The notes under the pieces: generated by a model
Database searches by the model: none
What the model was told of the DNA's origin: nothing
What the model saw: only the letters and a program-made list of their open reading frames with translations
In this document: positions 2,197 through 60,921 of the stretch, piece after piece
How positions within the stretch are numbered: position 1 is the first letter of the stretch
How the letters are laid out: each line of letters begins with the position of its first letter
Source of the DNA: Actinoplanes sp. NBC_00393
Lineage (GTDB): Bacteria; Actinomycetota; Actinomycetes; Mycobacteriales; Micromonosporaceae
Assembly (NCBI RefSeq): GCF_036053395.1
Contig: NZ_CP107942.1
Span: 5,236,501-5,300,500 of the forward strand
Direction of reading: 5' to 3'
DNA: 64,000 nt
Translations under genes and position numbers: made by a program

Positions 2197-2500
2197 GGCT
2201 GACCCCCAACGTCCCTTCCCACCCGCCGAAGCAGCACTCCCGGTCAGCCCGACCCCTCCAGCTGACCCCCAGCGTTCCTTCCCGGCCGTTGAGGCAGCAC
2301 TCCCGGTCAGCCGGACCCCTCCAGCTGACCCCCAGCGTTCCTTCCCGGCCGTTGAAGCAGCACTCCCGGTCAGCCCGACCCCTCCAGCTGACCCCCAGCG
2401 TTCCTTCCCGGCCGTTGAAGCAGCGGTGCCGGTCAGCCCGGGGCTCGGGCTGACCGGCAGCGTCGCTTCGCGGCCGTTGAAGGGGCGCTGACCGTCAGCC
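2197..2500. repeat. Tandem array A of the 62-63 bp palindromic repeat (5 units)
   Basis: Units begin with GCTGAC at 2198, 2261, 2324, 2387 and 2449, so the period is 63, 63, 63 and 62 bp. Most units open with GCTGACC and close with GGTCAGC, a perfect 7-bp outer stem. The inner stem is weak here (CTTC with GAAG). The array fills most of the 429-bp gap between the helicase start (2104) and the end of the reductase-methyltransferase gene (2534). No gene is visible in the gap. A role in transcription termination of the 2534 gene is possible but unproven. Confidence 0.85.
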
Positions 2501-2533
2501 GGCTGTGTGGCTGCCGGCCAGCGCGGGCCGGGG

Positions 2534-4114
2534 TCACGCGCGGCGGCGGGCCTGTAGGACAGCGTCGTGGATGGTGATCGGGCGGCCGTCCGGGTCCTTG
2601 AACGGGCGTGGCCGCGCCTCAGCCGCGACGATCTCCCACTCGGCCGCGGGCAGCGACTCCGCGATCTCCTCGGCCGTGAACAGCATGTCCGGAAAGTGCA
2701 TCCGGCCGACCCCGCTGACCAGGTCCGACGGGTGGTGACCGACGATCAGCAGGGTGCCGCCGACGGCGACCGCGCCGGCCAGGTGGGCGTAGAGCTCCTG
2801 GCGCGCCTCCGGCGGCAGGTGCATGAACTGCGCGGACACCAGATCGTACGAGCGCTGCTCCGGAGCTTCGCGTCGCAGATCAGCGTGCCGGAAGGTGATC
2901 TGTTCGGCCAGCCCGGCCTCGGCGGCGTGCCCGGCGGCGCGGCCCAGCGCGACCGTCGAGATGTCCACCGCGGTCACCTGCCAGCCTCGCTGCGCCAGCC
3001 AGACCGCGTCGGCGCCTTCACCGCAGCCGACGTCCAGCGCACGACCGGCAGCGAGATCGGAGGCCGAGGCCACGAGCTGCGGGTTCGGTTTGCCGCTCCA
3101 CACCGCAGACTTGCTGCGGTACCGCTCCTCCCAGGCGTCCTCCTCGAAGATGGTGGCGATCCGGTGCCGGTACTCGGCCACCGCCAGCCGGGTGTCCTCG
3201 GCGATCAGGTCCATGTTGATCGCCGCACCCGCCGTCTGCCCGCCCGCGGCCGCCACCGCGACGGTCGCGCCCAGGTTGGTGACGTTCCCGGCCACCCAGA
3301 CCCCGGGGACCGAGGTGGCGCCCATCGGGTCGGCCGGGATGTGACTGCCCAGCGCGAACCCGTTCATCTCGAAGTCGACCGCTTTGAGGCCGAGCGACTC
3401 CAGCACCGCGGACCGCGCCACGAACCGCGGCCCGGCGGCGATCGCGTCCAGGGCCACCACCTCGCCGGACTCCAGCCGTACCCCGGTCAGCCGGTCGCCG
3501 CTCACCTCCACCGAGGCGATCCGGCCGGCCACCAGCGGAACCGCGCGGGCGGCGAGCTCCTCGGACTGCTCGACGCCCGGCGCCGCCTGCCCGTTGAGCA
3601 GGAACAGAACGTTCGGGCTGATCTGCCGCCACATCTGCACCTGATGCAGGCTCAGCGGCCCGGTCGCCAGGACGCCGATCCGCTGGTCACGCAGTTCCCA
3701 GCCGTGGCAGTACGGGCAGTGCGCCACGTCCCGGCCCCACCGCCCGGCCAGACCCGGAACGTCCGGCAGCTCGTCGACCAGTCCGGTCGTCACCAGCAGC
3801 CGCCGGCCACGAACCTCCCGGCCCCCGTCGAGGCTCACCCGGAACACGTCGCCGTCCCGGACCGCGGACTCGGCCCGCCCGTCCAGCAGCTCCGCGCCGT
3901 AGCCGGCGATCTCGGCGCGCCCGGCGGCGTACAGCTCGGCCGGCGACTTGCCGTCGTGCCCGAGCACGTTCTGCATGTGCGCGGCCGGGGCGTTGCGGGG
4001 TTCCCCGCTGTCGACCACGAGCACCGACCGCCGCGAGCGGGCCAGGGCCAGCGCCCCACTCAGTCCGGCGGCGCCGCCACCGATAACCACCACGTCGTAC
4101 GTCTGCTGCTCCAC
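2534..4114 (-). CDS. Fused thioredoxin reductase-like flavoprotein and SAM methyltransferase
   Basis: 526 residues. The N-terminal half is a thioredoxin reductase-like FAD/NAD(P) oxidoreductase: dinucleotide motif GGGAAG at about 12-17 and a redox-type CPYC near residues 131-134. From about residue 330 a class I SAM methyltransferase follows, with motif I LDVGCGEG near 356. This fusion occurs as a bifunctional oxidoreductase/methyltransferase family in actinobacteria; its substrate is unknown to me. I chose GTG at 4114 because AAGGGGAG sits just upstream; the frame continues to 4336, but that extension would overlap the divergent regulator. It diverges from the XRE-cupin gene across a short gap holding a palindrome, so it is probably that regulator's target. 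The CxxC suggests disulfide reduction or a redox-coupled methyl transfer, which is inference. Confidence 0.88.
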   Translation of the reverse strand: MEQQTYDVVVIGGGAAGLSGALALARSRRSVLVVDSGEPRNAPAAHMQNVLGHDGKSPAELYAAGRAEIAGYGAELLDGRAESAVRDGDVFRVSLDGGREVRGRRLLVTTGLVDELPDVPGLAGRWGRDVAHCPYCHGWELRDQRIGVLATGPLSLHQVQMWRQISPNVLFLLNGQAAPGVEQSEELAARAVPLVAGRIASVEVSGDRLTGVRLESGEVVALDAIAAGPRFVARSAVLESLGLKAVDFEMNGFALGSHIPADPMGATSVPGVWVAGNVTNLGATVAVAAAGGQTAGAAINMDLIAEDTRLAVAEYRHRIATIFEEDAWEERYRSKSAVWSGKPNPQLVASASDLAAGRALDVGCGEGADAVWLAQRGWQVTAVDISTVALGRAAGHAAEAGLAEQITFRHADLRREAPEQRSYDLVSAQFMHLPPEARQELYAHLAGAVAVGGTLLIVGHHPSDLVSGVGRMHFPDMLFTAEEIAESLPAAEWEIVAAEARPRPFKDPDGRPITIHDAVLQARRRA

Positions 4115-4174
4115 AGCCTCTCCCCTTCCGTGCCGCGTCGTTCCCGCCCACCGTGCCCCAGCGTTCCGCGAAGC

Positions 4175-4190
4175 AGCAACTAAAGTTGCT
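4175..4190. promoter_or_regulatory. Candidate XRE operator, perfect palindrome
   Basis: AGCAAC-TAAA-GTTGCT is a perfect 6-bp inverted repeat with a 4-bp centre. It ends 3 bp before the ATG of the XRE-cupin gene (4194) and lies 60 bp upstream of the divergent reductase-methyltransferase start. The position suits autorepression plus control of the divergent gene. It is assigned by position and symmetry only. Confidence 0.6.
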
Positions 4191-4193
4191 GTT

Positions 4194-4766
4194 ATGGCAA
4201 AAGCGCTCACCACCGTCGGCCCGCGACTGCGCGAACTGCGCCAGCAGCGCGACATGACCCTCACCCAGCTGTCCGAGAGCACCGGCATCTCGGTGAGCAC
4301 CCTGTCCCGCTTGGAGTCCGGAACCCGCAAACCCACGCTCGAGCTGCTGCTGCCGCTCGCCGAGGCCTACCAGGTCACGCTCGACGAGCTCGTCGACGCC
4401 CCGGAGACCGGCGATCCACGGGTGCGGGCCCGGCCGATCGAGCGCGGCGGCCGCACGTACATCCCACTCACCCGCCGGCCCGGCGGCCTGCAGGCCTTCA
4501 AGCAGATCCTGCCGCCCGACCCGGCCGGCTGCGACCTGGAACAGAAGACCCATGAGGGGTACGAGTGGCTCTACGTCCTGTCCGGCCGAGTGCGCCTGCT
4601 GCTCGGCGAGCACGACATCACGCTGACCCCCGGCGAGGCGGCCGAGTTCGACACCCGGCTCCCCCACCTGGTCCTCAACCCTGGCTCGGAACCCGCCGAG
4701 ATCATCAACATCTTCGGCCCCCAGGGCGAACGCCTGCACGTCCGCGCCCGCTCCACCACCCGCTAG
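4194..4766 (+). CDS. XRE-family regulator with C-terminal cupin domain
   Basis: 190 residues. An N-terminal helix-turn-helix covers about residues 8-65 (MTLTQLSESTGISVSTLSRLE), and a small cupin fold lies at about 115-185 (HEGYEWLYVLSG, then LTPGEAAEF). Cupin-XRE proteins are usually one-component regulators that bind a small ligand in the cupin barrel. The ATG at 4194 is used; there is no good Shine-Dalgarno sequence and the palindrome at 4175-4190 nearly abuts the start, so the message may be leaderless. It diverges from the flavoprotein-methyltransferase gene, the likely target. The ligand cannot be read from the sequence. Confidence 0.88.
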   Translation: MAKALTTVGPRLRELRQQRDMTLTQLSESTGISVSTLSRLESGTRKPTLELLLPLAEAYQVTLDELVDAPETGDPRVRARPIERGGRTYIPLTRRPGGLQAFKQILPPDPAGCDLEQKTHEGYEWLYVLSGRVRLLLGEHDITLTPGEAAEFDTRLPHLVLNPGSEPAEIINIFGPQGERLHVRARSTTR

Positions 4767-4849
4767 CAACGCAAGCCCCACGCACCCTCTCACCCCTGGC
4801 CAACCGAACCACCAGGCCCGGCCAAGCCACCGGGTCTGCGACCTGCCGA

Positions 4850-5030
4850 GCTGCCCGGCCACCGGGCCAGCGAGCCACCGGGCCACCGGGCCACCGGGCT
4901 GCCGGGCTGCCGGGCTGCCGGGCCAGCGGGCTGCCCGGGCCACCGGGCTTCCGGGCTGCCGGGCTGCCGGGCGAGCGGGCTGCCCGGGCCAGCGGGCTTC
5001 CCGGGCCGGCGGCCGGCGGCCGGCGGGGTG
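4850..5030. repeat. Short GGGC-rich tandem repeats
   Basis: Degenerate 8-10 bp units of the type CCGGGCCAC, CCGGGCTG and CCGGGCCAG repeat about 18 times just downstream of the XRE-cupin stop codon. They are non-coding low-complexity DNA, probably slippage-prone. No family is recognised. Confidence 0.7.
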
Positions 5031-5332
5031 ACAGCGCTACCGCGCGGCCGAGACCGCCATTTCGGCCTGTTTGACCACTCAGCCGCAGGGGATGAGTGCG
5101 GGCGACAGCCGTAAGACACAGCCGAGCCCACTTCTTCGAGCTTTTCGATCATCCGGCTGGGAGCTGCGCACCCTTCAAGCCGCCGGAGACAGCCGCATCT
5201 CCCAGCCCACCCCCAAGAACCGGCCATATAGACCACCCGGCTGGGAGCTACGGCCGCCATGATGATCCGCAACCGGCAGAACGTCGCCGCCACTGCCGCA
5301 TCCGGCCAGTCGGCCCATCTGCCGGGCAACCC

Positions 5333-5573
5333 GGCTGACTGTCACGGCTGCTTCCGGGCCCGGGAAACAACCCTCACCGCCAGCCGGGCAAACCAGCTGA
5401 CCCCCACGGCTGCTTCCACGCCCGAGAAACGACCCTCACCGCCAGCCGGGCGATCCCAGCTGGCTCTCACGGCTGTTTGCGCGGCCGGGAAACAGCCCTC
5501 AGCGCCAGCCAAGGCGAACCGGCTGGCGGTCACGGCTGTTTGCGGGGGCGGGGAATGACGCTGAGCGCCAGCC
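5333..5573. repeat. Tandem array B of the palindromic repeat (4 units)
   Basis: Units start at 5333, 5395, 5458 and 5521. The third has an outer stem GCTGGC with GCCAGC and an inner stem GGCTGTTT with AAACAGCC. Here the family's usual GCTGACG/CGTCAGC and GCTGCCTC/GAGGCAGC pairs are replaced by other pairing bases, which is compensatory change. The fourth keeps GGCTGGCG with CGCCAGCC outside but has lost the inner stem. Confidence 0.8.
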
Positions 5574-5639
5574 GGGCAATTCGGGCAGGCGGGGTCGGCG
5601 GGCAGAAGGGGTCGGCGGGGCCGGAGGGCACGAGCGGTC

Positions 5640-5822
5640 GGCGGGGCCGGAGGGCACGAGCGGTCGGCGGGCTGGAGGGGGCGGCGGAGCAGGAGGGAGC
5701 GGCGGGCTGGAGGGAGCGGCGGGGCCGGAGGGAGCGGCGGGGCGGGAGGGAGCGGGCGGGGCGGGAGGGAGCGGCGGGGCGGGAGGGAGCGGCGGGGCGG
5801 GAGGGGGCGGCGGGGCTGGGGG
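5640..5822 (+). repeat. G-rich purine repeat with quadruplex potential
   Basis: The + strand is a run of units like GGCGGGGCGGGAGGGAGC with many G3-G5 runs separated by 1-3 bases. It lies about 90 bp past the stop of the minus-strand dehydrogenase gene, so that transcript would be C-rich and its template G-rich. Quadruplex formation is predicted from composition only. Confidence 0.6.
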
Positions 5823-5913
5823 GATTGCTTAAGCCCGGCGGGCGCGTTGAGGGCCGCGACGTCGAGGCTGCGTCGCGTCGTAGGGCAAGACCTGTGCGTA
5901 GCCCGTACCCCCG

Positions 5914-6852
5914 CTATTCGACGATGTTGCGCAGCGGGCGCCCCTCCTGGAATGCCTGCAGGTTCGCGGTGATCAGGTCGGCGGCGCCGACCGGGCGGCC
6001 GCCGGCCGCGTGCGGGCTGATGATGATGTTGGGTTCGTCCCAGAGGGGCGAGTTCGGGGGCAGCGGCTCGGTGTCGAAGACGTCGAGGGCGGCGCCGGCG
6101 AGGCGGCCGGAGCGGATGGCGTTGAGCAGGGCTACCTCGTCGAGGGTGCTGCCGCGACCGACATTGATCACCCAAGCGTGTGGCTGCAGCTGGGCCAGCA
6201 CGCCGGCGTTGAGGGCGCGCTCGGTGGCCGGGGTGGCGGGCAGGATGGAGATCAGCAGGTCGGTGTGCGGCAGCAGTTCCGGGAAGGCCTCCTCGGTGAC
6301 GACCGGGTAGCCGTGCCGGGTGCCGGCCTGCCGTGCGACCCCGGTGACCTGCGCGCCGAGGGCCGTGAGCAGCGGCGCGAGCGTGGCGGCGATCCCGCCG
6401 AAGCCCCAGATGACCACCTTGGCGTCGCGCAGGGTGCGGAACGCGCCGGCCTCGTGGACCGGCTGGAGCCCGCCGAGTTCGGTCGCCCAGCGGTGCCCGA
6501 TCTGGGCGCGGATCAGCAGGTTGAGCCGGCGGGCGGCGGCCAGGGCGAGGGCGAGGGTGTGTTCGGCGACGGTACGGTCGTGCAAGCCAAGACCGGCAGT
6601 GATCAGCACGTCGGGCGCGAAGCCGGCGGCCAGCACCGCGTCCGGTCCGGCGGCCAGGGTCTGCACCCAGCGCAGGCTCTTGAGCCGGGTGGCCGCGTCG
6701 CTGAGCGTGTCCGCCGGGTTGCCCCACACCACCAGGACTTCGGCGTCGGTGTGCTCGTCCGGTACGGGCCGGCGCACGTCGTAGACGACCGCGGTGGTGC
6801 CGGCCGGGAGTCGCGGGTCGAGTTCAACGGTGTCGGGCAGCAGGACTTTCAT
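5914..6852 (-). CDS. D-isomer specific 2-hydroxyacid dehydrogenase
   Basis: 312 residues, the normal length for this NAD(P)H-dependent family, which interconverts 2-oxo acids and D-2-hydroxy acids. The Rossmann loop reads WGFGGIA. The catalytic trio is visible as Arg in INVGRGS, Glu in DVFDTEPLP and His in SPHAAGG. The ATG at 6852 lies 5 bp after the upstream glycosyltransferase stop, so the two form a transcription unit. The substrate is unknown; glyoxylate/hydroxypyruvate reductase-like activity is possible. The G-rich tract and array B lie just downstream. Confidence 0.9.
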   Translation of the reverse strand: MKVLLPDTVELDPRLPAGTTAVVYDVRRPVPDEHTDAEVLVVWGNPADTLSDAATRLKSLRWVQTLAAGPDAVLAAGFAPDVLITAGLGLHDRTVAEHTLALALAAARRLNLLIRAQIGHRWATELGGLQPVHEAGAFRTLRDAKVVIWGFGGIAATLAPLLTALGAQVTGVARQAGTRHGYPVVTEEAFPELLPHTDLLISILPATPATERALNAGVLAQLQPHAWVINVGRGSTLDEVALLNAIRSGRLAGAALDVFDTEPLPPNSPLWDEPNIIISPHAAGGRPVGAADLITANLQAFQEGRPLRNIVE

Positions 6853-6857
6853 GAGCG

Positions 6858-8366: not shown

Positions 8367-8475
8367 CTGTCACCTCCGGAGGCTCGCCTCGGCAATTGAT
8401 TGCACGCAGATCAGGCCGCTACGGATCGGATTGGTGAGCGAATTCATCAGAACGAGGTCGGGTGGGAGCCGACGG

Positions 8476-8506: not shown

Positions 8507-8522
8507 CCTGGAGAGAGAAGGG

Positions 8523-10640: not shown

Positions 10641-10660
10641 TGTGGATCTCCTCGGTCTCA

Positions 10661-14874: not shown

Positions 14875-14875
14875 A

Positions 14876-14961: not shown

Positions 14962-15399
14962 GTGCGACTGAACCGTTCCACCGACATCGGGCTCCGGATC
15001 TTGATGCTCGCCGCGGCCCGTTCGGAAGATCTGCTGACGATCGACGAGCTGGCCGCCGGCGTCTCGGTCCCGCGCAGCCACCTCGCCAAGGTGGTCCAGC
15101 GGCTGCAGCACCTCGGCCTGCTCGACACCGTTCGCGGCCGGGGCGGCGGTGTCCGGCTCGCCACCGCGGCAGCGGACGCGTCGGTCGGCAGGCTCATCCG
15201 CGATCTCGAGGGCGAGACCGAGGTGGTGGACTGCGCCGGCGCGCAGCCGTGCCCGCTGAGCACGGGTAACTGCCGGCTGCGGGGTGCGCTGCGCGTCGCA
15301 CAGGAGGCGTTCTACGCCTCGCTCGACCCGATCACCGTCGGCGACCTGGCCGCCCCACCGGTCCGCCAGGTCCTGCTCACCCTCGGCCGATCCGGCTGA
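14962..15399 (+). CDS. Rrf2-family regulator, NsrR-like Fe-S sensor
   Basis: 145 residues. The N-terminal winged helix reads TIDELAAGVSVPRSHLAKVVQRL, typical of Rrf2. Three cysteines sit where NsrR and IscR bind an Fe-S cluster, in VDCAGAQPCPLSTGNCRL (about 94-110). NsrR represses nitric-oxide detoxification genes until NO attacks the cluster. The next gene is the flavohaemoglobin, the classic NsrR target. The GTG at 14962 follows the palindromic operator. The stop codon lies inside the first unit of a palindromic repeat (GGCTGAC), so the array abuts or replaced the original 3' end. NsrR identity is strongly supported by context but not proven. Confidence 0.85.
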   Translation: MRLNRSTDIGLRILMLAAARSEDLLTIDELAAGVSVPRSHLAKVVQRLQHLGLLDTVRGRGGGVRLATAAADASVGRLIRDLEGETEVVDCAGAQPCPLSTGNCRLRGALRVAQEAFYASLDPITVGDLAAPPVRQVLLTLGRSG

Positions 15400-15507
15400 C
15401 CGCCAGCGCTGCTTCCGCGCCCCTGAAGCAGCACCCGGGTCAGCCCGACCACTCGGCTGACGCTGAACGCTGCCTCCGTGCGCCGGAGGCAGCATCAGGC
15501 GTCAGCC
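15394..15507. repeat. Array C of the palindromic repeat (2 units)
   Basis: These are the best-formed units in the window. The first pairs GGCTGACC with GGTCAGCC and GCTGCTTC with GAAGCAGC. The second pairs GGCTGACGC with GCGTCAGCC (9 bp) and GCTGCCTCCG with CGGAGGCAGC (10 bp). They lie between the Rrf2 stop and the hmp ribosome site, so a transcript crossing them would carry two stacked double hairpins. Confidence 0.9.
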
Positions 15508-23132: not shown

Positions 23133-23975
23133 ATGACGGAGCTTTCCCACTTCCGGCAGGGCAGCGGCCCGCCCCTGGTGCTGATTCACGGCATCGGCAG
23201 CCATTGGCAGGTGTGGTCGCCGGTCCTCGACGAGCTGACCCGCCACCGCGACGTGATAGCCCTCGACCTCCCCGGCTTCGGCGCCTCCCCACCCTGGCCA
23301 CCGCCCGCCGCGACCCCAACCGCCGCCGACATTCCACAGTCCGCGCTCCCGCCACCACCCGGATCGGTCGCTCACCTCGCCGACCTCGTCACCGCTTTCC
23401 TGGACCGGCTCGGGGTGCAGAATCCCGAGGTGGGCGGCAACTCCCTCGGCGGCGGCATCGCCCTCGAACTGGGCCGCCGCGGCGTAGCCCGCTCCGTCAC
23501 GGCCTTCTCCCCGGTCGGTTTCTGGAGCAGCGCCGGCCGCCGCTGGTGCCAGACCGTCGTGGGCGCCGCCCGCACCGGCGCGGTCCGCCTCCAACCAGCC
23601 CTGCCCGGCATCATGAACTCCCGCGCCGGCCGGGCCGCGTTCTGCGCGCCCTTCTTCGCCCACCCGGCCCGCCTGCCGGCCGCCGACGGCCTCTCCGCGG
23701 CCCGCGCCCTGGCCGCCGCCCCGGGCTTCGCCCCGACCCGCCGGGCCTTCGCCGACCTGCCACCGTGGAGCTGGACGAACACCGGCGCCCTGACCCGCAT
23801 CCCGGTCACGATCGCCTGGGGTACGCGAGACGCCGTCCTCCCCTACCGCACCCAGGCCCGCCGCGCCCGAACCGTCCTGCCCACCGCCCGCCACGTCCGC
23901 CTGCCCAGCTGCGGCCACCTCCCCTTCGCCGACAACCCCACCCGCTGCGCCGCCCTCCTGCTCCGCCACCCATGA
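23133..23975 (+). CDS. Alpha/beta hydrolase (esterase-like)
   Basis: 280 residues. The fold markers are LVLIHGIGSHWQVW (oxyanion HG), nucleophile GNSLGG (Ser about 103), Asp in WGTRDAVLP (about 231) and His in SCGHLPF (about 261), a full Ser-Asp-His triad. It is divergent from the GMC-monooxygenase pair across 78 bp, and hydrolysis of the ester made by the monooxygenase is a natural role. The ATG follows GTACGG directly with no clear ribosome site, so the message may be leaderless. An insert rich in Pro and Ala (about 53-75) lies in the cap region. Confidence 0.88.
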   Translation: MTELSHFRQGSGPPLVLIHGIGSHWQVWSPVLDELTRHRDVIALDLPGFGASPPWPPPAATPTAADIPQSALPPPPGSVAHLADLVTAFLDRLGVQNPEVGGNSLGGGIALELGRRGVARSVTAFSPVGFWSSAGRRWCQTVVGAARTGAVRLQPALPGIMNSRAGRAAFCAPFFAHPARLPAADGLSAARALAAAPGFAPTRRAFADLPPWSWTNTGALTRIPVTIAWGTRDAVLPYRTQARRARTVLPTARHVRLPSCGHLPFADNPTRCAALLLRHP

Positions 23976-23993
23976 CCGCCACAGCCCACCCCA

Positions 23994-24189
23994 GCTGACG
24001 CCAACCGCTGCCTCCCAGCCCCCGATACAACACTCACCGTCAGCCCACTCACCCCAGCTGACGCCAACCGCTGCCTCCCAGCCCCCGAAACAACACTCAC
24101 CGTCAGCCAACCCACCCCAGCTGACACCAACCGTTGCCTCCCAGCCCTCGAAACGACACTCACCGTCAGCCCACTCACCCCAGCTGACG
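23994..24189. repeat. Array D of the palindromic repeat (3 units plus partial)
   Basis: Units start at 23994, 24057, 24120 and 24183 (exact 63-bp period). The outer stem GCTGACG with CGTCAGC is kept in units 1 and 2. The inner stem has decayed (GCTGCCTC opposite GATACAAC or GAAACAAC), so this array looks older or less constrained than array C. Confidence 0.85.
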
Positions 24190-24403: not shown

Positions 24404-24865
24404 GCCGCTTTCGGAAGGTCTCCCGCCGCAGAGCGCCGGCCGCCGCGCGATGTGCCCTGCCTGCCGGGGCGGGTCCGGCTGGATCGAAGGGAGGGCGGGC
24501 TGGTGAGCGCCTGCACGGCGACCCGGCCGGCCCACCCGGCACATCTCGCGATCGAGGCGAGCGGCCGGGTGGCTCGGGGGCGGTTGGCGGCTCGGTAGAC
24601 GGCCGCCGAATCCGGACCGATGGGCGAGACCCCGACGCCGGAGACCCGCTAGCGCTGCATCCCGCCCCGAAGCGACGCTCACCGTCAGCCGGGCCCGACC
24701 GCATTCGGCAAGCTCTTCGCGGCCGCTAGGCCATGCGGGTGGTTGCGGCTACCTCCGCCTCTTCGATCTTGCGGAGTTGCCCGGGAACGGTGCGCGCGAG
24801 AGTTACCAGATCGGCGGTTCGGCACGCCGCCTTGGCACGCACGTAGAAGCATCGGCACGCGAGCC

Positions 24866-24918
24866 GGCTGACGGTGAGCGCTGCGTCCTGGTGCTGGAAG
24901 CAGCGTTGGCGGTCAGCC
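24866..24918. repeat. Single palindromic repeat unit E, opposite orientation
   Basis: GGCTGAC pairs with GTCAGCC, and GCTGC with GCAGC inside. The TGAG linker on the left shows that it is inverted relative to most other units, whose CTCA linker is on the right. A half unit lies at 24651-24690. Confidence 0.7.
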
Positions 24919-30344: not shown

Positions 30345-30985
30345 TTTCGTACGGGCAATGGCCGTCCCCCACAATCCACACCTCCCCGCCGCACGACGCG
30401 GCCCGGCAGCCAGGCCGGGCCCCAGCGCGGCCGCCGGGAAACAGCACGGGGCTGAGCTTCACACGCACCGCCGGCGCGCCGGTACCGCGCAAACCACCAG
30501 TCCAGCTGGTTAACCCGGCGGTTCCAGCCACCCCGTTGACACAGCCGTGAGAACCAGCCCGCCGGTCCAGCTGACACCAAGCGCTGCCTCCCGGCCCCCG
30601 AAGCAACACTCACCGTCAGCCGAGCCGGCCAGCTGACCCCCACTGCTGCCTCCCGGCCCCCGAAGCAACACTCACCGTCAGCCCGGCCGGTCCAGCTGAC
30701 CCCCACTGCTGCCTCCCGGCCTGCGAGGCAGCGCTCAGCGCCAGCCGAGCCGACCAGCTGACGGCCACCGCTGCCTCCCGGCCCGCGAGGCAGCGCTCAG
30801 CGTCAGCCGAACCGGCCAGCTGACGGCCACCGCTGCTTTCCGCGCCGGGAGGCAGCGCTCAGCGTCAGCTGAGGAAACCGGCTGACGGCCAGCGCTGCTT
30901 CCCGCGCCGGGAGGCAGCGGTGGCCGTCAGCCCGGGTCGGTCGGCTGGCTCTCAGGGCTGTTCCGGAGGGGCGGGAACAGCCGTG
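30345..30985. other. Intergenic region of 640 bp, mostly repeat array
   Basis: It lies between the MarR gene (+) and the end of the amidase gene (-). The first 220 bp show nothing beyond GC-rich unique sequence. The rest is array F. No gene is supported. Confidence 0.7.
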
Positions 30986-30995
30986 TTAACCAGCC
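30569..30995. repeat. Array F of the palindromic repeat (7 units, longest array)
   Basis: Units start at 30570, 30632, 30695, 30757, 30819, 30881 and 30944 (62-63 bp). Unit 4 pairs GCTGACG with CGTCAGC and GCTGCCTC with GAGGCAGC. Unit 5 keeps the inner stem through G-U wobbles (GCTGCTTTCC with GGGAGGCAGC). Unit 7 pairs GGCTGG with CCAGCC and GGCTGTTCC with GGAACAGCC. The last unit includes the amidase stop codon. Confidence 0.88.
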
Positions 30996-32383
30996 GGTAT
31001 GGGGGTGACGGGTGGGAACGCGGCCTCGATGTCGCGGGCGGCGGCGAGCGCGATGTGATCGGCATGCTGGCGGGCGATCACCTGGACGCCGAGCGGGCGG
31101 CGGCCGGAAAGACCAGTCGGGACGGCGACGGCGGGCAGGCCGAGGAAGTTGGCCGTCACGAGCAGGCGGTGGGCACGCCAGAGTTCTGTGGTCGCGGCGG
31201 GGCCACTCAGGTCGTACCCGATTTGCGGCATTTCCTGAGTGGTCACCGGGCCGAGCACGACTGGATAGCGGGAGTGGAACTCACGCCACGCCGCGGCGTG
31301 CACGAAGCGCTCCGCCCAGGCGCCCTGGTAGGCAGCGGACGTGTCCAGGAGGGTGACGTCGGCGATGTTGTCGCGGAAGTACTGGACGGTCCCGGCCGAC
31401 AGCGGCCCCGGGAAGACGCCCGGGTTGATCAGCATCGGCGCGTTCTCGGTGGAGGAGAGCTGCCGCCAGAGGACGGCGCACCGGTCGACCGCCGGCGGCG
31501 ACACCTCCTCGACCTCCCAGCCCGCTGCGGCCAGCGCCGACGCGGCCGCGCGCACCGCACCGGCAACCGCCGGATCGACTCCCCAGCCGGCCGGGTCCAC
31601 AGTGACCGCTACCCGGCGCGGCCCGTCGTAGCCGGACGGATGCGGCACCGACAGCGACAGCGGGTCGTAGGAGTCAGCGCCGTGCATGACCGAGAACAGC
31701 AGGTCGAGGTCGTCGACGGAGCGGGCGAGCGGCCCGTTCACCGCCATCTGCTGCAGGGACAGCGGCAGCGGCTCGACGGTCCGGGACGGCGCCGGCACCC
31801 GCCCGGCCGAGGGACGCAGCGCGGTGATCCCGGCCGCGTGGGCGGGCAGCCGCAGCGACCCGCCGTAGTCGTTGCCGAGCCCGGCCGCGGCCATGCCGGT
31901 CGCCACCGCCACCGCGTCGCCGCCCGACGACCCGCCGGGCACCCGGTCCGGGTCCCAGGGGTTGACGGTCCGCCCGTACAGATCGTTGTCGGTGTCCCAG
32001 CGCAGGCCGATGTCCGGCATGTTGCCGCGCCCCACCGGGATCGCCCCGGCCGCGAGGAGCCGGTCGACGAACGTGGCGTTCGCGGGCGGGACGTTCCCGG
32101 TCGCGAACGGCAGCCCCGAGGTAGTCGCCGACCAGGTCAGGTCGATGTTCTCCTTCACGGTGATCGGCACCCCGGCCAGCGGCCCCGGGTCGGAACCCGC
32201 GGCGATCCGGGCGTCCAGGGCGGCGGCCGCGGAACGAGCCTGATCGTCGAGGACGACGGTCACGGCGTTGACCTTCGGGTTCACCGCGGCGATCCGATCC
32301 AGGTGGGCATCGACGACGGCGGTCGCGGTGAGCCGGCCGTCGCGGACCTGGGCGGCGATCTCGGTCGCGGTCAAGTTGATCAT
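30986..32383 (-). CDS. Amidase signature family hydrolase
   Basis: 465 residues. The Ser-cisSer-Lys triad is visible: Lys in TVKENID, Ser in GGSSGGDAVAVATG and nucleophile Ser in DYGGSLRLPA. Such enzymes hydrolyse amides or transfer amide nitrogen. The ATG at 32383 has AAAGG upstream and overlaps the CocE gene stop (ATGA). The TAA stop lies inside the last unit of palindromic array F. With the CocE-type hydrolase and the nearby peptide importer it suggests catabolism of an imported amide or ester compound. Confidence 0.92.
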   Translation of the reverse strand: MINLTATEIAAQVRDGRLTATAVVDAHLDRIAAVNPKVNAVTVVLDDQARSAAAALDARIAAGSDPGPLAGVPITVKENIDLTWSATTSGLPFATGNVPPANATFVDRLLAAGAIPVGRGNMPDIGLRWDTDNDLYGRTVNPWDPDRVPGGSSGGDAVAVATGMAAAGLGNDYGGSLRLPAHAAGITALRPSAGRVPAPSRTVEPLPLSLQQMAVNGPLARSVDDLDLLFSVMHGADSYDPLSLSVPHPSGYDGPRRVAVTVDPAGWGVDPAVAGAVRAAASALAAAGWEVEEVSPPAVDRCAVLWRQLSSTENAPMLINPGVFPGPLSAGTVQYFRDNIADVTLLDTSAAYQGAWAERFVHAAAWREFHSRYPVVLGPVTTQEMPQIGYDLSGPAATTELWRAHRLLVTANFLGLPAVAVPTGLSGRRPLGVQVIARQHADHIALAAARDIEAAFPPVTPIPAG

Positions 32384-42707: not shown

Positions 42708-42760
42708 CCCCACCCCGGGCTGACCCCCAGCGTCGCCGAGGGCCACGCCAAACAAACCTG

Positions 42761-43075
42761 CCTGACGGGCGGCTCGCGCCCGGGAGCCGCCGCCCAGACG
42801 CCCTACCGCCAGGCCATAACCCGCCTGACGGGCGGCTCGCGCCCACGAGCCGCCACCCAGACGCCCTACCGCTAGCCCAAAACCGGCCTGACGGGCGGCT
42901 CGCGCCCACGAGCCGCCACCCACGCGCCCTACCGCCAGCCCGAAACCCGCCTGACCGGCGGCCCGCGCCCACGAGCCGCCACCCACGCGGCCTACCGCCA
43001 GGCCATAACCCGCCTGACGGGCGGCTCGCGCCCGCGAGCCGCCACCCACGCGCCCTACCGGGCCTGCGGCCGCCG
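42761..43075. repeat. Five-unit 63-bp palindromic tandem array, second family
   Basis: Units begin with CCTGAC at 42761, 42824, 42887, 42950 and 43013, an exact 63-bp period. Each centres on GGCGGCTCG-cgccca-CGAGCCGCC, a 9-bp inverted repeat; in unit 4 the left arm is GGCGGCCCG, a mismatch. The rest of the unit (ACGCCCTACCGCCAGGCC...) is shared between units but not with the dispersed GCTGAC family. It matches that family only in period. Confidence 0.88.
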
Positions 43076-53779: not shown

Positions 53780-53802
53780 GCTCCGAGCGAGGGGGACAAC
53801 TG

Positions 53803-55153: not shown

Positions 55154-56397
55154 CCCTGCCCGGCGCACTGAGCATGCCCGGGCAGGAGCCGGCCCGGCCC
55201 GGACTCGTCGTGGTCGTCGCGTTCGTCGCCGCTCTGGCCGGCCGCTTCACCCTCGACCGGGCCGGCCTGGAGATCCCGATCCTGAACGACGTACGCGTAC
55301 CCCTGTTCATCGCTCTCTGGTTGTGCCTGCTGCTGGAAGCGCACCGGATCGGCCCGCGTGCCGCCGCCGGCGGCTACTGCGTGCTGCCGATCATCGGCCT
55401 GCACGGGTACCAGGCGATCTCCGCCACCTGGACCCCGCCCGGCACGGTCATCGGCCCGGTGATCGGCGACCTGGCCGCGGTCGTGTTCCTGATCGCGGCC
55501 TACTACGTCATGGCCCGGTGGGACCGCGACCACGTCACCCGGATCACCCTGTACTGCTTCCACGCCGCGGCCTGGGTCTACTTCCTGGCCGCCTCCACCG
55601 GCCGCGGCCACGCCTCCGGTGGGCGGTGGGCGGCGCTCGGCGGCGGGCCCAACGTGTTCGTCCGGATCATGATCCTCGGCGTCATCACGTCGCTGTACCT
55701 CTACGCCCGCAGCGACGCGAAACTGCGCTGGCTGATACCGATCCCGTTGTTCCTGTTCGGCGCGATCGCCTCCGGATCCCGCGGTGGCATGGCCGCGCTC
55801 GCCATCACGGCCGGGGTGGCGCTGCTCGCGTTCCGGCCCCGGCCCCGCTGGGACCAGCTCGCCAAACCCGCCGGCCTGCTGGCCCTGCTGTCGATCATCG
55901 TGGCGGTCACCGCCGGCCCGACGATCGCCGAGTTCGTCCAGACCCGGTTCGTCGAGGCGACGTTCCAGCAGGGCTACCTCTCGCAGCGGGACGTGCTGTT
56001 CGCCTACGCCCTGCGGCTGTTCTGGCAACGGCCGCTGTTCGGCACCGGCATCAACGGCTTCGTCACCGAACTGGGCGACGCCGGGCTCTACGTGCACAAC
56101 CTGCCGCTGTCGATCGCCGCCGAGGGTGGCTTCGCCGGCCTGACCCTGCTCGGTCTGGCCTGGTTCACCCTCTGGCACGCCTACGTCAGGTCACCCCGCG
56201 CCCAGCGCAGCCCGGAAGCCCGCGCGGCCGCCTACAGCGGCATCTTCATCGGCGGAACCAGCCTGTTCTCCGGCGACTACTACGACGCCCGGCTGATGTG
56301 GATCCTGCTGATCCTGGCCGCCATCCGGCCCGCCGCGCCACCGGGGTCGCTGCACACCGGTAGCATCGCCTTCCCGTGGAGCCGAACCTCGACCTGA
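55150..56397 (+). CDS. O-antigen polymerase/ligase-like (Wzy) membrane protein
   Basis: 415 residues, about ten membrane helices. The Wzy_C region has FGAIASGSRGGMAALA, a large loop, and RPLFGTGINGF with VHNLPLSIAAEGGFAGL. Such proteins polymerise or ligate lipid-linked oligosaccharides outside the membrane. The GTG start overlaps the flippase stop. The 3' end overlaps the SUMF1-like gene start by 22 bp. Confidence 0.87.
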   Translation: MTLPGALSMPGQEPARPGLVVVVAFVAALAGRFTLDRAGLEIPILNDVRVPLFIALWLCLLLEAHRIGPRAAAGGYCVLPIIGLHGYQAISATWTPPGTVIGPVIGDLAAVVFLIAAYYVMARWDRDHVTRITLYCFHAAAWVYFLAASTGRGHASGGRWAALGGGPNVFVRIMILGVITSLYLYARSDAKLRWLIPIPLFLFGAIASGSRGGMAALAITAGVALLAFRPRPRWDQLAKPAGLLALLSIIVAVTAGPTIAEFVQTRFVEATFQQGYLSQRDVLFAYALRLFWQRPLFGTGINGFVTELGDAGLYVHNLPLSIAAEGGFAGLTLLGLAWFTLWHAYVRSPRAQRSPEARAAAYSGIFIGGTSLFSGDYYDARLMWILLILAAIRPAAPPGSLHTGSIAFPWSRTST

Positions 56398-57350
56398 TCC
56401 CGGTGCCGGCCGGTTCGATCACCCTGTCCGACCGCCGCACCGATCGCCGGTGGCCGGTCGAGGTGGCCTCCTTCCAGCTGGCGGCGGTCCCGGTCACCGA
56501 GGCCCTCTACGCCGACCTGACCAGCCAGTCACCGGACCGTGCCGCCCCACTCCCGGCCATCACGCCCCCGCCGGGCAACGCCCGACCTCCGGCCGCGTCC
56601 CAGCCGGGCAACGCCCGACCTCCGGCCGCGTCCCAGCCAGGCAACGCCCGACCTCCGGCCGCGTCCCAGCCAGGCAACGCTCGACCTCCGGCCGCGTCCC
56701 AGTCAGGCAACGCCCGGCTTCCGGTCACGGGCGTGTCCTGGTGGGACGCCCTCCGTTTCTGCAACGCCCTTTCCGCCCGGCACGGCCTCAGCCCGGCCTA
56801 CCACTTCCTCCCGGCCGGCGACCTCCGCGCCGCCGACCGTCCAGCATCCGCCGGCCTTGCCCGCGCCGCCGCTCCCGTCCGCCCCGCGCACGGCCGCTTC
56901 TCCCCCGGTGGCCGGGTCGACAACGAGGGCCGTCTCCAGCCCGACGGCAGCCTGCTCCCCTCCGCCGACGAACCCGGCGTCCTCTGGGACCGCACCGCCG
57001 ACGGTTTCCGCCTTCCCACCGAGGCCGAATGGGAGCACGCCTGCCGCGCCGGCACCACCGAGGCCCGTTACGGCCCGCTCGACGAAATCGCCTGGTATCG
57101 CGGCAACTCCGCCGAACGCATCCACGAACCCGGCGGCAAACTGCCCAACGCCTGGGGCCTGCACGACATGCTCGGCAACGCCTGGGACTGGTGCTGGGAC
57201 GTCTACGACGCCGAGGTCTACGGCACCTACCGCGTGCTGCGCGGCGGCGGCTGGTTCGACGAGCACTGGAGCTGCCGCGCCTCGGTCCGCCGCCGCAGCC
57301 ACCCCGACCTGCGCATCGAGGACGTCAGCTTCCGCGTCGCGCGCTCCTAG
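56376..57350 (+). CDS. SUMF1/FGE-fold protein with internal 11-residue repeats
   Basis: 324 residues. FGE-sulfatase domain markers: [69 protein letters not shown] and a [13 protein letters not shown] end. True formylglycine-generating enzymes have two Cys in the last block (from memory, LC and YC); here only the second remains (SC), so that activity is unlikely. Five copies of an 11-residue unit, [11 protein letters not shown], are inserted at about 66-120. The start is GTG at 56376, inside the polymerase gene. The stop shares a CTAG with the lexA stop. Confidence 0.85.
56571..56735 (+). repeat. 33-bp coding minisatellite (5 units)
   Basis: Units start at 56571, 56604, 56637, 56670 and 56703, exactly 33 bp apart and in frame, encoding [11 protein letters not shown]. 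The first four are nearly identical in DNA and the last is more divergent. This indicates recent slippage or unequal exchange. Confidence 0.9.
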
Positions 57351-57970
57351 ACCCGGCGCATCACGCACACCACCTTGCCCATCACGACCGCCTCGTCACC
57401 CGGGATGACCTGGTAGAGCGGGTTGCGCGGAACCAGCTCCACCCGCCCACCGCGCCGGCGCAGCACCTTCACCGTGGCCTCGCCGTCGAGCATCGCCGCG
57501 ACGATGTCACCGTTCTCCGCGACCGGCTGCTTGCGCACCACCACGACGTCGCCGTCACAGATGGCGGCGTCGATCATCGAGTCACCCTTGACGTTGAGGG
57601 CGAAGAACGTGCCGAACCCGACCATCTCCCGGGGGACGGTCAGATGATCCTCGACGTTCTCCTCGGCGAGGATCGGCGCACCGGCAGCGATGTCACCGAG
57701 AACCGGCACGGTGACCGCCCGCTCGGCGAACTTCGGCCGCACGTCGACCGCGCGCGACTCGTTGGGCCGGCGCCGGAGCAGCCCGTGCCGCTCCAAAACC
57801 TTCAAGTGGTGACTGACCGAGGACGGCGAGACGAGGCCGACGGCCGCCCCGATCTCCCGCACAGTCGGTGGATAGCCGCGGTCACGGACCGAATCACGGA
57901 TCACGGCGAGGATGCGTTCCTGCCTCGCGGTGATGGGACGAGGGGCGCCCTCACCGCTGTCGATACTCAT
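57347..57970 (-). CDS. lexA: LexA-type repressor with divergent DNA-binding helix
   Basis: 207 residues. Winged helix at about 14-77 ([30 protein letters not shown]). Self-cleavage parts: Ala-Gly at about 96-97 (DIAAGAP), Ser 131 in KGDSMID and Lys 168 in EATVKVL. LexA represses SOS genes and cleaves itself with RecA. The recognition helix reads [13 protein letters not shown], whereas actinobacterial LexA usually reads STSSVAHQL (from memory). No clean CGAAC-N4-GTTCG box lies upstream. This suggests a LexA paralogue with its own operator. ATG at 57970; GTG at 57979 is possible. Confidence 0.85.
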
Positions 57971-57990
57971 GACCCGCACCCTACCCGAAA

Positions 57991-58010
57991 ATTAGATCAG
58001 GTGTACTAAT
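57991..58010. promoter_or_regulatory. Candidate LexA-paralogue operator
   Basis: ATTAG-N10-CTAAT, perfect 5-bp arms, lies 21 bp upstream of the lexA ATG in an AT-rich patch. A nearby CGAACGTGCGGTTTCG (about 58024-58039, minus strand) resembles an SOS box but has the wrong spacing. Which one is bound is open. Confidence 0.4.
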
Positions 58011-58097
58011 CGCGACCGAAACCGCACGTTCGGGGGACGGACGCGATACCCCCAAAGACGGATTGCCGGGCCGCGTTCACGCTGGTGAGATCGTCCG

Positions 58098-58619
58098 ATG
58101 CCGACCATCTGGGCCTACGCCGAGCAACTCGCCGCAGGCGACACCGGCCGGTGGCACGACGCCACCCGCCGCGCCGCGATCCTGCTCGCGCCGACCCGCC
58201 CGGTGCTCGAGCTGCCGCACCGGATGCCGGTGCACCATGTGCTCGTGCAGACCACCGCCCTGATCGTTCTCGGTCTTGCCGCCCGCCGGCACGACCACGT
58301 AGTCACCTCCGCCGAACTCGCCGCCTGGGCCGCCGACCACGCGGTTCCCTGCGTGCCACCGACGTCGCCCGAGGTCACCATCGCGGTGCGGCGCCAGCAG
58401 TCCGATCTGGCCGCCCTACTGCGCGCCGCCGGCCACCAGGTTCCCGACCCGGGCGTACGCTCGCTGCACCGCCACTCCCCCGACCCGGTGGTCCGCCAGT
58501 GGCACGACCTGGCCGACATCGACGACGAGACCGTCACCGCCTACGGCGTCTTCCCCGGCCCGTTGCTGACCCTCGGCATAGCCGCCATGGCCGACACTTT
58601 CGGCCCCGCGATCGTCTGA
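58098..58619 (+). CDS. Hypothetical cytoplasmic protein
   Basis: 173 residues with no family I recognise. Composition is normal for a coding gene in this genome and the frame is open throughout. It starts MPTIWAYAEQLAAGD and has a His/Arg-rich middle. No signal peptide is seen; a weakly hydrophobic stretch (HHVLVQTTALIVLGLAA) may be buried. It diverges from lexA with about 130 bp between starts, so it could be part of the LexA-paralogue regulon. GGTGAG precedes the ATG. Confidence 0.6.
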   Translation: MPTIWAYAEQLAAGDTGRWHDATRRAAILLAPTRPVLELPHRMPVHHVLVQTTALIVLGLAARRHDHVVTSAELAAWAADHAVPCVPPTSPEVTIAVRRQQSDLAALLRAAGHQVPDPGVRSLHRHSPDPVVRQWHDLADIDDETVTAYGVFPGPLLTLGIAAMADTFGPAIV

Positions 58620-58642
58620 CCCGCTCAGCCACCCCCAACCCA

Positions 58643-58747
58643 GCCGGCCCTCACGGCTGTTTCACCGCGCCCGAAACAACCCTCAAACCAACCCAGCTGG
58701 CCCTCACGGCTGTTTCGCAACGCCCGAAACAGCCCTCAGAACCAGCC
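58643..58747. repeat. Array G of the palindromic repeat (2 units)
   Basis: The second unit pairs GCTGG with CCAGC outside and GGCTGTTTCG with CGAAACAGCC inside (10 bp). This is the TTT/AAA version of the inner stem, a compensatory change compared with GCTGCCTC/GAGGCAGC. It lies between the convergent 58098 gene and MFS gene. Confidence 0.8.
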
Positions 58748-58764
58748 ACCACGACCCAGCGGCA

Positions 58765-60009
58765 TCAAGGGCGTGCAGGCGGGACTTCAACCGGCATCGG
58801 CGGAGCGTTGCGGACCGCCGGGCTGGCCGTCCCCACAACTGCGGCGCCCAGCATGATCGCGGCAAGCACCCACACCGACCCGACCGGCCCGATCGCCGTC
58901 AGCAGGAATCCGGCCCCCAACGATGCGATCGGCATGACACCCCAGGTCAACGTCATGGCCGCACTCGTCACCCGCCCGAGCAGCTCGTTGGGCACGAGCA
59001 CGCTCGCATAGGTGACCATCACCACGTTCCACAGCGGCCCGACGAACGCGCACGCCGCCCCGATCGCCCCGATCTGCAACGGATGCGTGGTGAACGCCAT
59101 CAACGGCAACAGCGCAGCCCAGATCCAGTTGATCCCGATGATCACCGTCCGCGGCGCGAAGTGCCGATGGAACCGTCCCGCGGCCAGCGCCCCGAGCAGC
59201 CCGCCGACACTGTAGAGACCGAGCATCACACCGACGGCCGTGGAACTCGCGCCCTGCTGCCGGGCCAGCACCACGATCACCAGCACCAGCGCCTGAAACA
59301 CCAGGTTGCCGACCGCCAGCAGCAGAATCGCCGCCCGGACGAGCCGGTGCCCCCACAGGTACCGCAGGCCGGTGGCCGCCGATCGCCACAGCGGTTCAGC
59401 TGCTTGCGTACGCTCGACCTGCAAATCTTTGCGCAGAAAGATCAGAGCGCCGGCCGCGACCAGGTAGGACAGCCCGTCAACGAGGAACGGCAGCGCCCGA
59501 TCGACGCCGAAGAGCACGCCACCCAGCGGCGGACCGGCCAGCGCCGCGCCGCGGCTGCGCGCTTCGTTGTGCGCGATCGCGGTGGGCAGCGCCGCAACCG
59601 GCACGATCATCGGCAGCGCCGCACGCTCGGCCAGGCCGAAGAAGACAAAACACAGGCCTTGCACGAACGCCACCAGGCAGAGCAGCGCAGTGCTGACCAC
59701 CCCCGACCAGAGAGCGATCGGTACGCCGAGCAGCGCCAAACCAGCGAAAGCCTCGGCGCCGACCATGATCCGGCGCCGGTTCCACCGGTCGACGAGCGGC
59801 CCGGCCGGAAGGTTGGCGATGAGGTGCGGAAGCGTGCCGGCCGCACCGACCAGTCCGGCGTCGGCGGGTGAGCCGGTGACGCCGAGCACCAGCAGCGGCA
59901 TCGCGGTACCGCTGATCGCGGCCCCCAGGTTCGAGACGACCTGACCGCTCCAGAGCAGGGTGAAGTCCCGGTTGCGCCAGAGCGAGACCGGCTCCGTCGT
60001 GGTGCTCAC
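58765..60009 (-). CDS. MFS exporter (12-helix)
   Basis: 414 residues, 12 predicted helices. N-terminus LWRNRDFTLLWSGQVVSNLGAAISG and motif A-like GPLVDRWNRRRIMVGAE are typical of the MFS_3/enterobactin-exporter-like group common in actinomycetes. The GTG start overlaps the stop of the upstream HTH gene (GTGA), so regulator and exporter form an operon. The substrate is unknown. Confidence 0.9.
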   Translation of the reverse strand: MSTTTEPVSLWRNRDFTLLWSGQVVSNLGAAISGTAMPLLVLGVTGSPADAGLVGAAGTLPHLIANLPAGPLVDRWNRRRIMVGAEAFAGLALLGVPIALWSGVVSTALLCLVAFVQGLCFVFFGLAERAALPMIVPVAALPTAIAHNEARSRGAALAGPPLGGVLFGVDRALPFLVDGLSYLVAAGALIFLRKDLQVERTQAAEPLWRSAATGLRYLWGHRLVRAAILLLAVGNLVFQALVLVIVVLARQQGASSTAVGVMLGLYSVGGLLGALAAGRFHRHFAPRTVIIGINWIWAALLPLMAFTTHPLQIGAIGAACAFVGPLWNVVMVTYASVLVPNELLGRVTSAAMTLTWGVMPIASLGAGFLLTAIGPVGSVWVLAAIMLGAAVVGTASPAVRNAPPMPVEVPPARP

Positions 60010-60575
60010 GACGCGTCCCCCGGCGTCGGAAAGGCGTGGAAGAGCACGGTGACCGGCCTGCTGCCCTCGGGTGCGTCGACCGGCGTACGGTTCCAGCGCT
60101 TGAGCAACGCCATGTACTCCTCGCCGAACCGCGCCAGTTCCTCCGCCGTCAACAGCGTCGCGCCGAACGAGTGCATGGCCGCCGCCGCGAACTCCCCGTG
60201 GGCACCCCGATCGGTGAGGTAGCCGACGAGGTCACGCTGCGACTGCTCCAGCCACTGCTTGCCGATCTCGTCCGCCGCGGCCGCCACTTCGGGATCCGCC
60301 GACGCCCGCGGCAGCCGAAGGTCCTGCGCGATCGCCCGCCAGTACTTCCGCCGCCCCGCCGACCGCCCCGTGTCCTCTTCGATGAACCCGTACCGGGCGA
60401 GCTGCCGCAAGTGATAGCTGGTAGCGCCACGATCCGCGCCATAGCGGGTGGCCAGCTCGGCGGAGGTCGCCGACCCGTACCGCTGCAGCCAGCTCAGCAT
60501 CTGCTGCCGCAGCGGGTGGGCGAGAGCTTTGAGCGCATCAACATCACTGAGAAGGCGGGGCGCGGGTTCCGGCAT
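60006..60575 (-). CDS. ArsR-like winged-helix regulator, probably leaderless
   Basis: 189 residues. The N-terminal winged helix (VDALKALAHPLRQQMLSWLQ, TSAELATRYGADRGATSYHLRQLARYGFIEE) is ArsR/HTH_20-like, followed by a helical ligand region with WLEQSQRDLVGYLTD. The promoter TTGAGA-N17-TATCTT ends 6 nt before the ATG, so transcription should begin at the start codon. It is coupled to the MFS exporter by GTGA and likely represses both. Confidence 0.87.
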   Translation of the reverse strand: MPEPAPRLLSDVDALKALAHPLRQQMLSWLQRYGSATSAELATRYGADRGATSYHLRQLARYGFIEEDTGRSAGRRKYWRAIAQDLRLPRASADPEVAAAADEIGKQWLEQSQRDLVGYLTDRGAHGEFAAAAMHSFGATLLTAEELARFGEEYMALLKRWNRTPVDAPEGSRPVTVLFHAFPTPGDAS

Positions 60576-60611
60576 GTTGAGAAGATATCAATGCAAAGAG
60601 TTCTTCTCAAC
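60576..60611 (-). promoter_or_regulatory. Leaderless promoter covered by a 9-bp inverted repeat
   Basis: GTTGAGAAG (60576-60584) and CTTCTCAAC (60603-60611) are exact inverted repeats with an 18-bp spacer. On the minus strand the distal arm contains the -35 TTGAGA and the proximal arm overlaps the -10 TATCTT and the expected start point, with 17-bp spacing. A bound repressor would cover the whole promoter. Confidence 0.7.
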
Positions 60612-60617
60612 CCCGTC

Positions 60618-60921
60618 GGCTGACGCCCAGCGCTGCCTCGTGAGCGCCGAAACGACACTCACCGCCAGCCGGGGATCCCGGGCTGACGCTCACCGCTGCC
60701 TCGTGAGCGCTGATACGACACTCAGCGCCAGCCGGGGTCCCGGGCTGACGCTCACCGCTGCCTCGTGAGCGCTGATACGACACTCAGCGCCAGCCGGGGA
60801 TCCCGAGCTGACGCCCAGCGCTGCCTCGTGAGCGCTGAGACGACACTCAGCGTCAGCTGAAGAGAGCGGGCTGGTGCTGAGGGCTGTTTGGCGGGCGTTG
60901 AGACAGCGCTGAGCGCCAGCC
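60618..60921. repeat. Array H of the palindromic repeat (5 units)
   Basis: Units start at 60618, 60681, 60743, 60806 and 60869 (62-63 bp). Unit 4 pairs GCTGACGC with GCGTCAGC; most inner stems are degraded (GCTGCCTC opposite GAAACGAC or GATACGAC). The last unit has the TGAG linker of the opposite orientation. The array fills most of the 384-bp gap between the HTH gene start and the 60960 gene stop; no gene is seen there. Confidence 0.82.

Follow-up and report, generated by a model that had tools for sequence, protein, structure and literature searches.

What kind of element is the palindromic repeat that recurs between the genes of Actinoplanes sp. NBC_00393, and what keeps its form? The question is raised by a 64,000-nucleotide (nt) stretch of the chromosome (the window; positions 5,236,501–5,300,500 of an 11.43-Mb single contig), in which a preliminary description had marked eight intergenic places with about 29 copies of a 62–63 bp double-stem design. 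The window's own genome is designated G000 here and its relatives bear similar numbers. All eight places carry units (5 + 4 + 2 + 3 + 1 + 7 + 2 + 5 = 29), and 27 of these have 53 letters and align without gaps; the exceptions are the unit at 15394, with a 52-letter core, and the truncated unit at 58642. The stem variants named in that description are present in window units, and the mix of intact and decayed copies it mentioned can be seen in the arrays. The evidence collected below points to a candidate REPIN-like hairpin element of the genus.

The unit proved to be one continuous palindrome and not the two separate stems first drawn. It consists of a fixed 53-nt core, with pairing between columns i and 54−i, and in arrays each core is followed by a linker of 9–10 nt, giving the 62/63 period (G000); TRF and lag analysis also showed this period in the window. 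The core ends, RGCTGR/YCAGCY, are nearly fixed, as are the inner pairs A12–T42, G15–C39 and TC21–22/GA32–33, the nearly fixed bases being those of columns 2–5, 12, 15 and 21–22 with their mirror columns. Positions between the fixed bases are free in sequence but re-paired, and the centre is a 9-nt stretch with little pairing. The flanks of 255 units revealed that the palindrome is extended by a C before and a G after the core; no fixed tetranucleotide, including an unpaired GTAG/CGTC tag, was found in these flanks, and CGTC in G000 units occurs only within the paired outer stem. Among eight folded units, the six intact ones reached −34 to −54 kcal/mol (z −4 to −11) and two decayed array units −12 and −13 kcal/mol.

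A position-weight scan of the window and of 40 stretches of 20 kb spread evenly over the chromosome (864 kb in all) revealed that the family is dispersed and not confined to the window, with 66 units in the other stretches, 13 of which contain any unit. The 95 units form 30 groups, nine of them single, and all score above 15 with the final matrix. A chance origin was rejected: first-order Markov copies of the 864 kb peaked at 1.1 in the first round and gave nothing above −5 later. On the whole G000 chromosome (11.4 Mb) the exact pattern RGCTGRN5AN2GN5TCN9GAN5CN2TN5YCAGCY matched 379 times, against 0 for the reversed control.

The length of the core is near-invariant. When G000 segments were selected for matching ends and outer pairing, 56 had a span of 53, and no other span between 36 and 71 accounted for more than three; over all loci scanned, part of which had been pre-chosen by the 53-nt pattern, 317 cases fell at span 53 and at most six at any other. 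A gapped scan found three sites that prefer a 52-nt core over any 53-nt placement, against 95 ungapped units, one site being counted among both. The 62 pairs of adjacent G000 units show a mean of 6.9 substitutions, with linkers of 8 nt (1), 9 nt (38) or 10 nt (23) between them. Because array spacing varies between genomes (63 and 72–73 in G060; 61, 63 and 64 in G075; 74–169 in G010), it is the core, not the array period, that is the constant.

Paired changes on both arms had been taken as a sign of selection for base pairing. Covariation was tested by structure-pair counts with column shuffles and swapped halves, and the signal turned out to be weak in the window alone and clear genome-wide and between species; selection on every unit was not borne out. 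For the window units only, the covariation score was 0.155 vs 0.131 after shuffling (6 of 500 shuffles reached the observed score); 13 pairs showed double changes vs 13.2 expected from shuffles, and RNAalifold recovered five outer pairs only. With 54 non-redundant G000 units the score was 0.207 vs 0.146, none of 500 shuffles being as high, and 0.07–0.11 when the pairing was slid. One pick per G000 array gave 16.8 of 26 pairs vs 15.4 with halves swapped between arrays, and the largest gains over swapped halves in this genome fell on pairs 6–48, 19–35, 14–40, 7–47 and 10–44; two apparently linked subfamilies, distinguished by eye (GCTGAC with GCTGC, and GCTGGC with GCTGT), may explain part of the G000 gain. 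Among 42 G010 units that were not filtered for pairing, block 7–11 was fully paired in 13, with nine different sequences, vs 4% for swapped halves; no gain was seen in these units at pairs 18–36 and 19–35. Across 53 distinct units of many species, double changes occurred in 16 of 22 pairs, with a score of 0.421 vs 0.148 that is inflated by the many rows picked for pairing. In within-genome tests free of such picking, at the 12 unconstrained pairs, own halves exceeded swapped halves in G000 (0.574 vs 0.490) and G010 (0.784 vs 0.664), while halves from different genomes paired at 0.34–0.47 and those from the same genome at 0.49–0.65. Units with at least 21 of 22 pairs made up 9 of 12 lone copies vs 4 of 44 array copies in G010, and 2 of 9 vs 0 of 86 in G000; the pooled difference (p 0.002) is driven by G010, G060 having one lone copy (20 pairs) and G075 none. 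Pairing is retained between species and in lone G010 copies, and is relaxed in arrays.

A search of related genera, proposed in the preliminary description, showed that units occur in other Actinoplanes species. Of 67 Actinoplanes genomes 18 contained the exact pattern, which none of the 233 genomes from 43 other genera of the family did; model R2 matched 11 of 36 Actinoplanes genomes, among them the window's own, and none of 24 from other families in the order. In this test, the units appear confined to Actinoplanes. All 78 contig stretches with the strict unit pattern were likewise from this genus (A. utahensis, A. xinjiangensis, A. lutulentus, A. palleronii, A. flavus and A. philippinensis). 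Among the matches listed and in the consensus, the inner stem is specific to the genome: GCTGCYTC in G000, GGGTGYCTC in G010 and G014, GGTGGTRTC in G060, GCCCTATCC in G075, and GCTGTCTC in G019 and G076. Copies numbered 241 in G060, 192 in G075 and 51 in G076. Sister pairs were taken from a tree of the dnaA region in 30 genomes (a single locus, ragged at its ends and used for this purpose only), and copy-rich genomes stood beside nearly empty ones: G090 with 426 and G087 with 1, G014 with 358 and G070 with 1, and G019 with 22 and G021 with 1. The 62/63 lag was absent from samples of about 200 kb of G017 and G026, and in such samples it was seen at one place in G010 and at one in G016 besides a run of N; a generic inverted-repeat survey for the same element in unit-free genomes gave little result.

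Comparison of the same sites showed how the copies differ between species. The region of the convergent MarR-like and amidase genes was taken from 11 relatives, and the gap could be read in seven. Differently stemmed 53-nt units occupy it in G000, G075 (six 63-nt units with a CCCTATCC stem), G060 (a single unit whose 22-bp stem is perfect) and G014 (two units); no units are present in G080, G066, G076 and G016, with gaps of 304, 42, 56 and 892 nt, respectively. The 892 nt of G016 (L216) consist of simple GGCCCGGCATGG-type repeats where G000 has a seven-unit array. This gap collects different repeats in different species. The A. flavus stretches match G019 at 99–100% and represent that genome; when four of its five queried sites were compared with the sister G021, the unit was missing from G021 at three. 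At the one site common to both, the two units differ by seven substitutions and no indel: pair 4–50 changed from T–A to C–G, one mismatch became a pair, and three pairs were broken.

Gene context was derived from codon-based gene calls, with 391 gaps of at least 60 nt as background (63 convergent, 195 codirectional, 133 divergent). Of 43 G000 sites, 14 of which entered as best model matches outside the even sample, 23 were convergent, 16 codirectional and one divergent, with one inside a gene and two at locus edges; both the convergent excess (Fisher p 3e-8) and the divergent deficit (7e-6) stood out from the background. The 82 sites in named species comprised 34 convergent, 22 codirectional, 10 divergent, five inside and 11 edge sites, and those of the other congeners 14, 16, 1, 1 and 1, respectively. 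A 3' end was the nearest gene end at 110 of 137 sites, at a median distance of 40 nt, and in codirectional gaps the upstream stop was the nearer in 38 of 54 (p 0.004), though in just 10 of 16 in G000. No T-tract follows the core: at least four T in the first eight bases occurred in 4 of 102, 18 of 306 and 1 of 102 flanks, and T made up 0–3% at the first two positions past it. A stable hairpin soon after the stop codon without a T-tract is the arrangement expected of a U-less terminator.

Uniform orientation of the units in the window was considered as a separate signal and rejected, as it follows the replication arm. With dnaA at 8.534 Mb and the terminus assumed opposite, GC skew is negative in 13 of the 17 arrays of one arm, and 11 of the 13 arrays of the other show zero or positive values (Fisher p 0.0025). 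The common orientation is therefore best read as the usual strand skew of replication acting on decaying copies; the skew was measured on arrays.

Taken together, these sequence comparisons suggest, with roughly even confidence, a REPIN-like, non-autonomous hairpin element of Actinoplanes that is spread in trans and tolerated at gene ends. Copies would be spread or homogenised by a putative factor that may recognise the hairpin when folded in single-stranded DNA, the cues being its ends, its pairing and its length. They would persist where harmless, namely after stop codons, and the hairpin in the transcript could serve as a U-less two-way terminator or a 3'-end block. Tandem arrays would be secondary, from duplication of unit plus linker, and most array copies would be relaxed and drifting with the base skew of their replication strand. 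We infer both mobility and transcription termination from sequence.

The likeness to REP/BIME elements "in principle" that the preliminary description had seen is upheld by high-copy extragenic palindromes whose length is constant, whose ends are fixed and whose interior is re-paired, save for the pairing in the G060 and G075 array samples. REPINs of Pseudomonas fluorescens SBW25 and other bacteria are likewise described as having inverted conserved ends, a constant length and a hairpin interior in which compensatory changes are frequent, and are extragenic, lineage-specific and found in tandem clusters with their flanks (PMC3116915). REPs with a GTAG/CGTC tag resemble the units as high-copy palindromes in convergent and codirectional gaps, frequently no more than 20 bp from a stop codon (PMC3733652). 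However, the families of that study measure 20–40 bp, compared with 53 nt in Actinoplanes, where the unpaired tag at one end was not found; the main text of the study does not contain the words Actinobacteria, Streptomyces or Frankia. The units also differ from REPINs in their 53-nt length and their ends, in the tandem arrangement of most G000 copies, and in showing no link to a Y1 transposase in G000.

Several observations weigh against a REPIN-like element. Neither transposition nor an excised form was observed, and no cognate enzyme came to light. The Y1 transposase family PF01797 matches 21 of 67 Actinoplanes genomes, but it was not found in the unit-bearing G060, G075 and G076, and a cognate Y1 transposase (RAYT) flanked by repeats was not found. 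G000 has two partial Y1_Tnp matches (C1:3492728 and C1:3439669; L075 and L076), one with an internal stop, and no unit lies within the 3.2 kb around them. One of the unit-less G021 sites retains a decayed half unit, where loss is as good an explanation as gain, and the unit shared by A. flavus and G021 looks vertically inherited. The array units of G060 (0.504 for own vs 0.551 for swapped halves at the unconstrained pairs; nine groups) and G075 (0.559 vs 0.647; eight groups) showed no pairing beyond the genome consensus, and in G000 the mean pairing of lone copies equals that of array copies. Because no Y1 transposase was found with the units in these genomes, it is not claimed that the element is a REPIN; that it works like one is the favoured wording.

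The placement of the units could also be explained by cis-acting RNA only, with U-less (I-shaped) bidirectional terminators or 3'-end stabilisers selected at each gene end, immobile, and strengthened by arrays; we consider this rather unlikely. The predominance of nearby 3' ends and the strong folding of the intact units fit it, as does the better pairing of lone G010 copies. In Streptomyces clavuligerus, Term-seq revealed 353 structured 3' ends lacking U, and two-way ends with longer stems (PMC8269248), and hairpin clusters near stop codons have been proposed as terminators (PMC8355165). The U-less terminators of GC-rich bacteria share with the units a strong hairpin past the stop, the lack of a U-tract and possible two-way action (PMC8269248), yet they would not be expected to form a dispersed family of constant length and end sequence. 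A terminator has no need of exactly 53 nt, fixed ends or a species-wide stem sequence; moreover, most copies are missing from sister species, the missing T-tract and the scarcity of T past the core speak against it, and the named species have divergent sites and sites inside genes. Termination is compatible with a REPIN-like element, and may be a possible reason why copies stay at gene ends.

Paired changes can arise without selection when template switching at a palindrome during replication copies one arm onto the other, a mechanism documented for hairpins (PMC8794818). Block copying of this kind predicts what was seen at G010 block 7–11, which has 0–1 pairs in eight of the 42 units beside the 13 fully paired ones. 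However, it predicts equal pairing in lone and array copies, from which G010 departs and G000 does not; none of the 42 G010 loops is the reverse complement of another, and fixed ends, fixed length and dispersal are left unexplained. As a full account it appears improbable. Still less credible, and very improbable in our view, is a double-stranded protein-binding site with strictly spaced half-sites, its ligand being, for example, a nucleoid protein or the gyrase suggested for BIMEs: the strict 53-nt spacing and the near-fixed columns agree with it, but a duplex site does not require the free positions between them to co-vary as pairs, and the inner stem is species-specific.

Integron attC sites are imperfect palindromes whose fold is recognised more than their sequence, with the core motif GTTRRRY/RYYYAAC. 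The units, by comparison, end in RGCTGR/YCAGCY, have constant length and enclose no gene cassettes; this identity was rejected, as attC core sites are absent from alignment A3. Minisatellites of the MIRU/VNTR type in mycobacteria are intergenic tandem repeats of 40–100 bp, from which the units differ by being palindromic and also single and dispersed. No Rfam family reached its gathering score in the window; a relaxed search, of 30450–31100 only, returned miRNA hairpin models far below the cut-off. Coding repeats were rejected, 62 not being a multiple of 3 and the units lying between called genes. A plasmid origin was also rejected, the array at 30450–31100 (the one array searched) having no plasmid match, as was a viral one, with no exact pattern match in viral contigs. 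The open-access literature on repeats and palindromes in Actinoplanes and related actinobacteria yielded nothing on a 53-nt hairpin family, which, judged from these searches alone, has not yet been described in the group. The genome paper of strain SE50/110 reports many stable GC-rich secondary structures that halted sequencing (PMC3364876).

Table 1. Repeat units and a neighbouring array in the window (positions count from its first letter)
Feature	Position	Strand	Context
5-unit array (2197, 2260, 2323, 2386, 2448)	2197..2500	+	33 nt 3' of the stop of a minus-strand gene, 2534–4114
4-unit array (5333, 5395, 5458, 5521)	5333..5573	+	Convergent genes on either side
2 units	15394..15507	+	First unit (52-nt core) overlaps the stop codon of a plus-strand Rrf2-like gene, 14962–15399
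3 weakly paired units (23993, 24056, 24119)	23993..24171	+	17 nt past the stop of gene 23133–23975
Lone unit	24866..24918	+	
7-unit array (30569, 30631, 30694, 30756, 30818, 30880, 30943)	30569..30995	+	Between convergent MarR-like and amidase genes
Period-63 tandem array of different sequence (GCCTGACGGGCGGCTCG...)	42754..43060	.	Outer stem drawable with span 53; possible sister family
2 units, first truncated	58642..58747	+	Between convergent genes
5-unit array (60618, 60681, 60743, 60806, 60869)	60618..60921	+	38 nt 3' of the stop of a minus-strand gene, 60960–62117

Within the seven-unit array (Table 1), unit 30880 has almost perfect pairing. Faint matches to model R1 at 30504–30559 and 24640–24690 (14.8 and 23.3 bits, respectively) resemble decayed units beside intact ones. 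GC-rich short tandem repeats with periods of 8/16 and 18/36 nt (4822–5007 and 5583–5830) flank the 5333–5573 array, and tandem repeats of 15 nt and 36/72 nt at 62154–62309 and 63268–63421 may be coding. In A. flavus (L123, L127 and L158) a second dispersed repeat of about 100 nt, ending in GGGCTGAGCTCGGTGGTCC or similar, often abuts the 5' side of the unit; it occurs at many places in G019 and G021, in the latter seemingly many times without the 53-nt unit.

Among the arrays outside the family, TRF analysis of the 864 kb revealed an isolated peak at period 63 (16 rows), compared with 0–2 rows at each period from 54 to 62 and one at 64. Examples unlike the family lie at L065 8172, L070 6039, L036 522, L038 7821, L061 863 and L032 7465. 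In 13 of 17 such rows, the array at 42754–43060 included, 53 was among the best outer-stem spans, though often tied with other spans. These arrays are possible sister families. Only tentatively, the units may represent a new class of actinobacterial hairpin mobile DNA, defined by 53-nt length, fold and a few fixed bases, in which machinery other than a REP transposase would spread or homogenise the copies and so rewrite the stems throughout a genome during the divergence of lineages, and the same machinery would have made the other 63-nt arrays.

REP and REPIN elements are currently explained by RAYT transposases. If the reading as a REPIN-like element is true, such a family, present in hundreds of copies in genomes where no Y1 transposase was detected, would imply that elements of this sort can be maintained by another enzyme; with sister pairs as uneven as 426 vs 1 copies, comparative genomics offers a tractable route to finding it. 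A strict hairpin length with free stem sequence offers a clean case for separating pairing selection, template-switch correction and protein recognition, and the family is a warning that covariation in palindromic DNA does not by itself prove a function as RNA. The lone units are candidate strong two-way terminators in high-GC actinomycetes.

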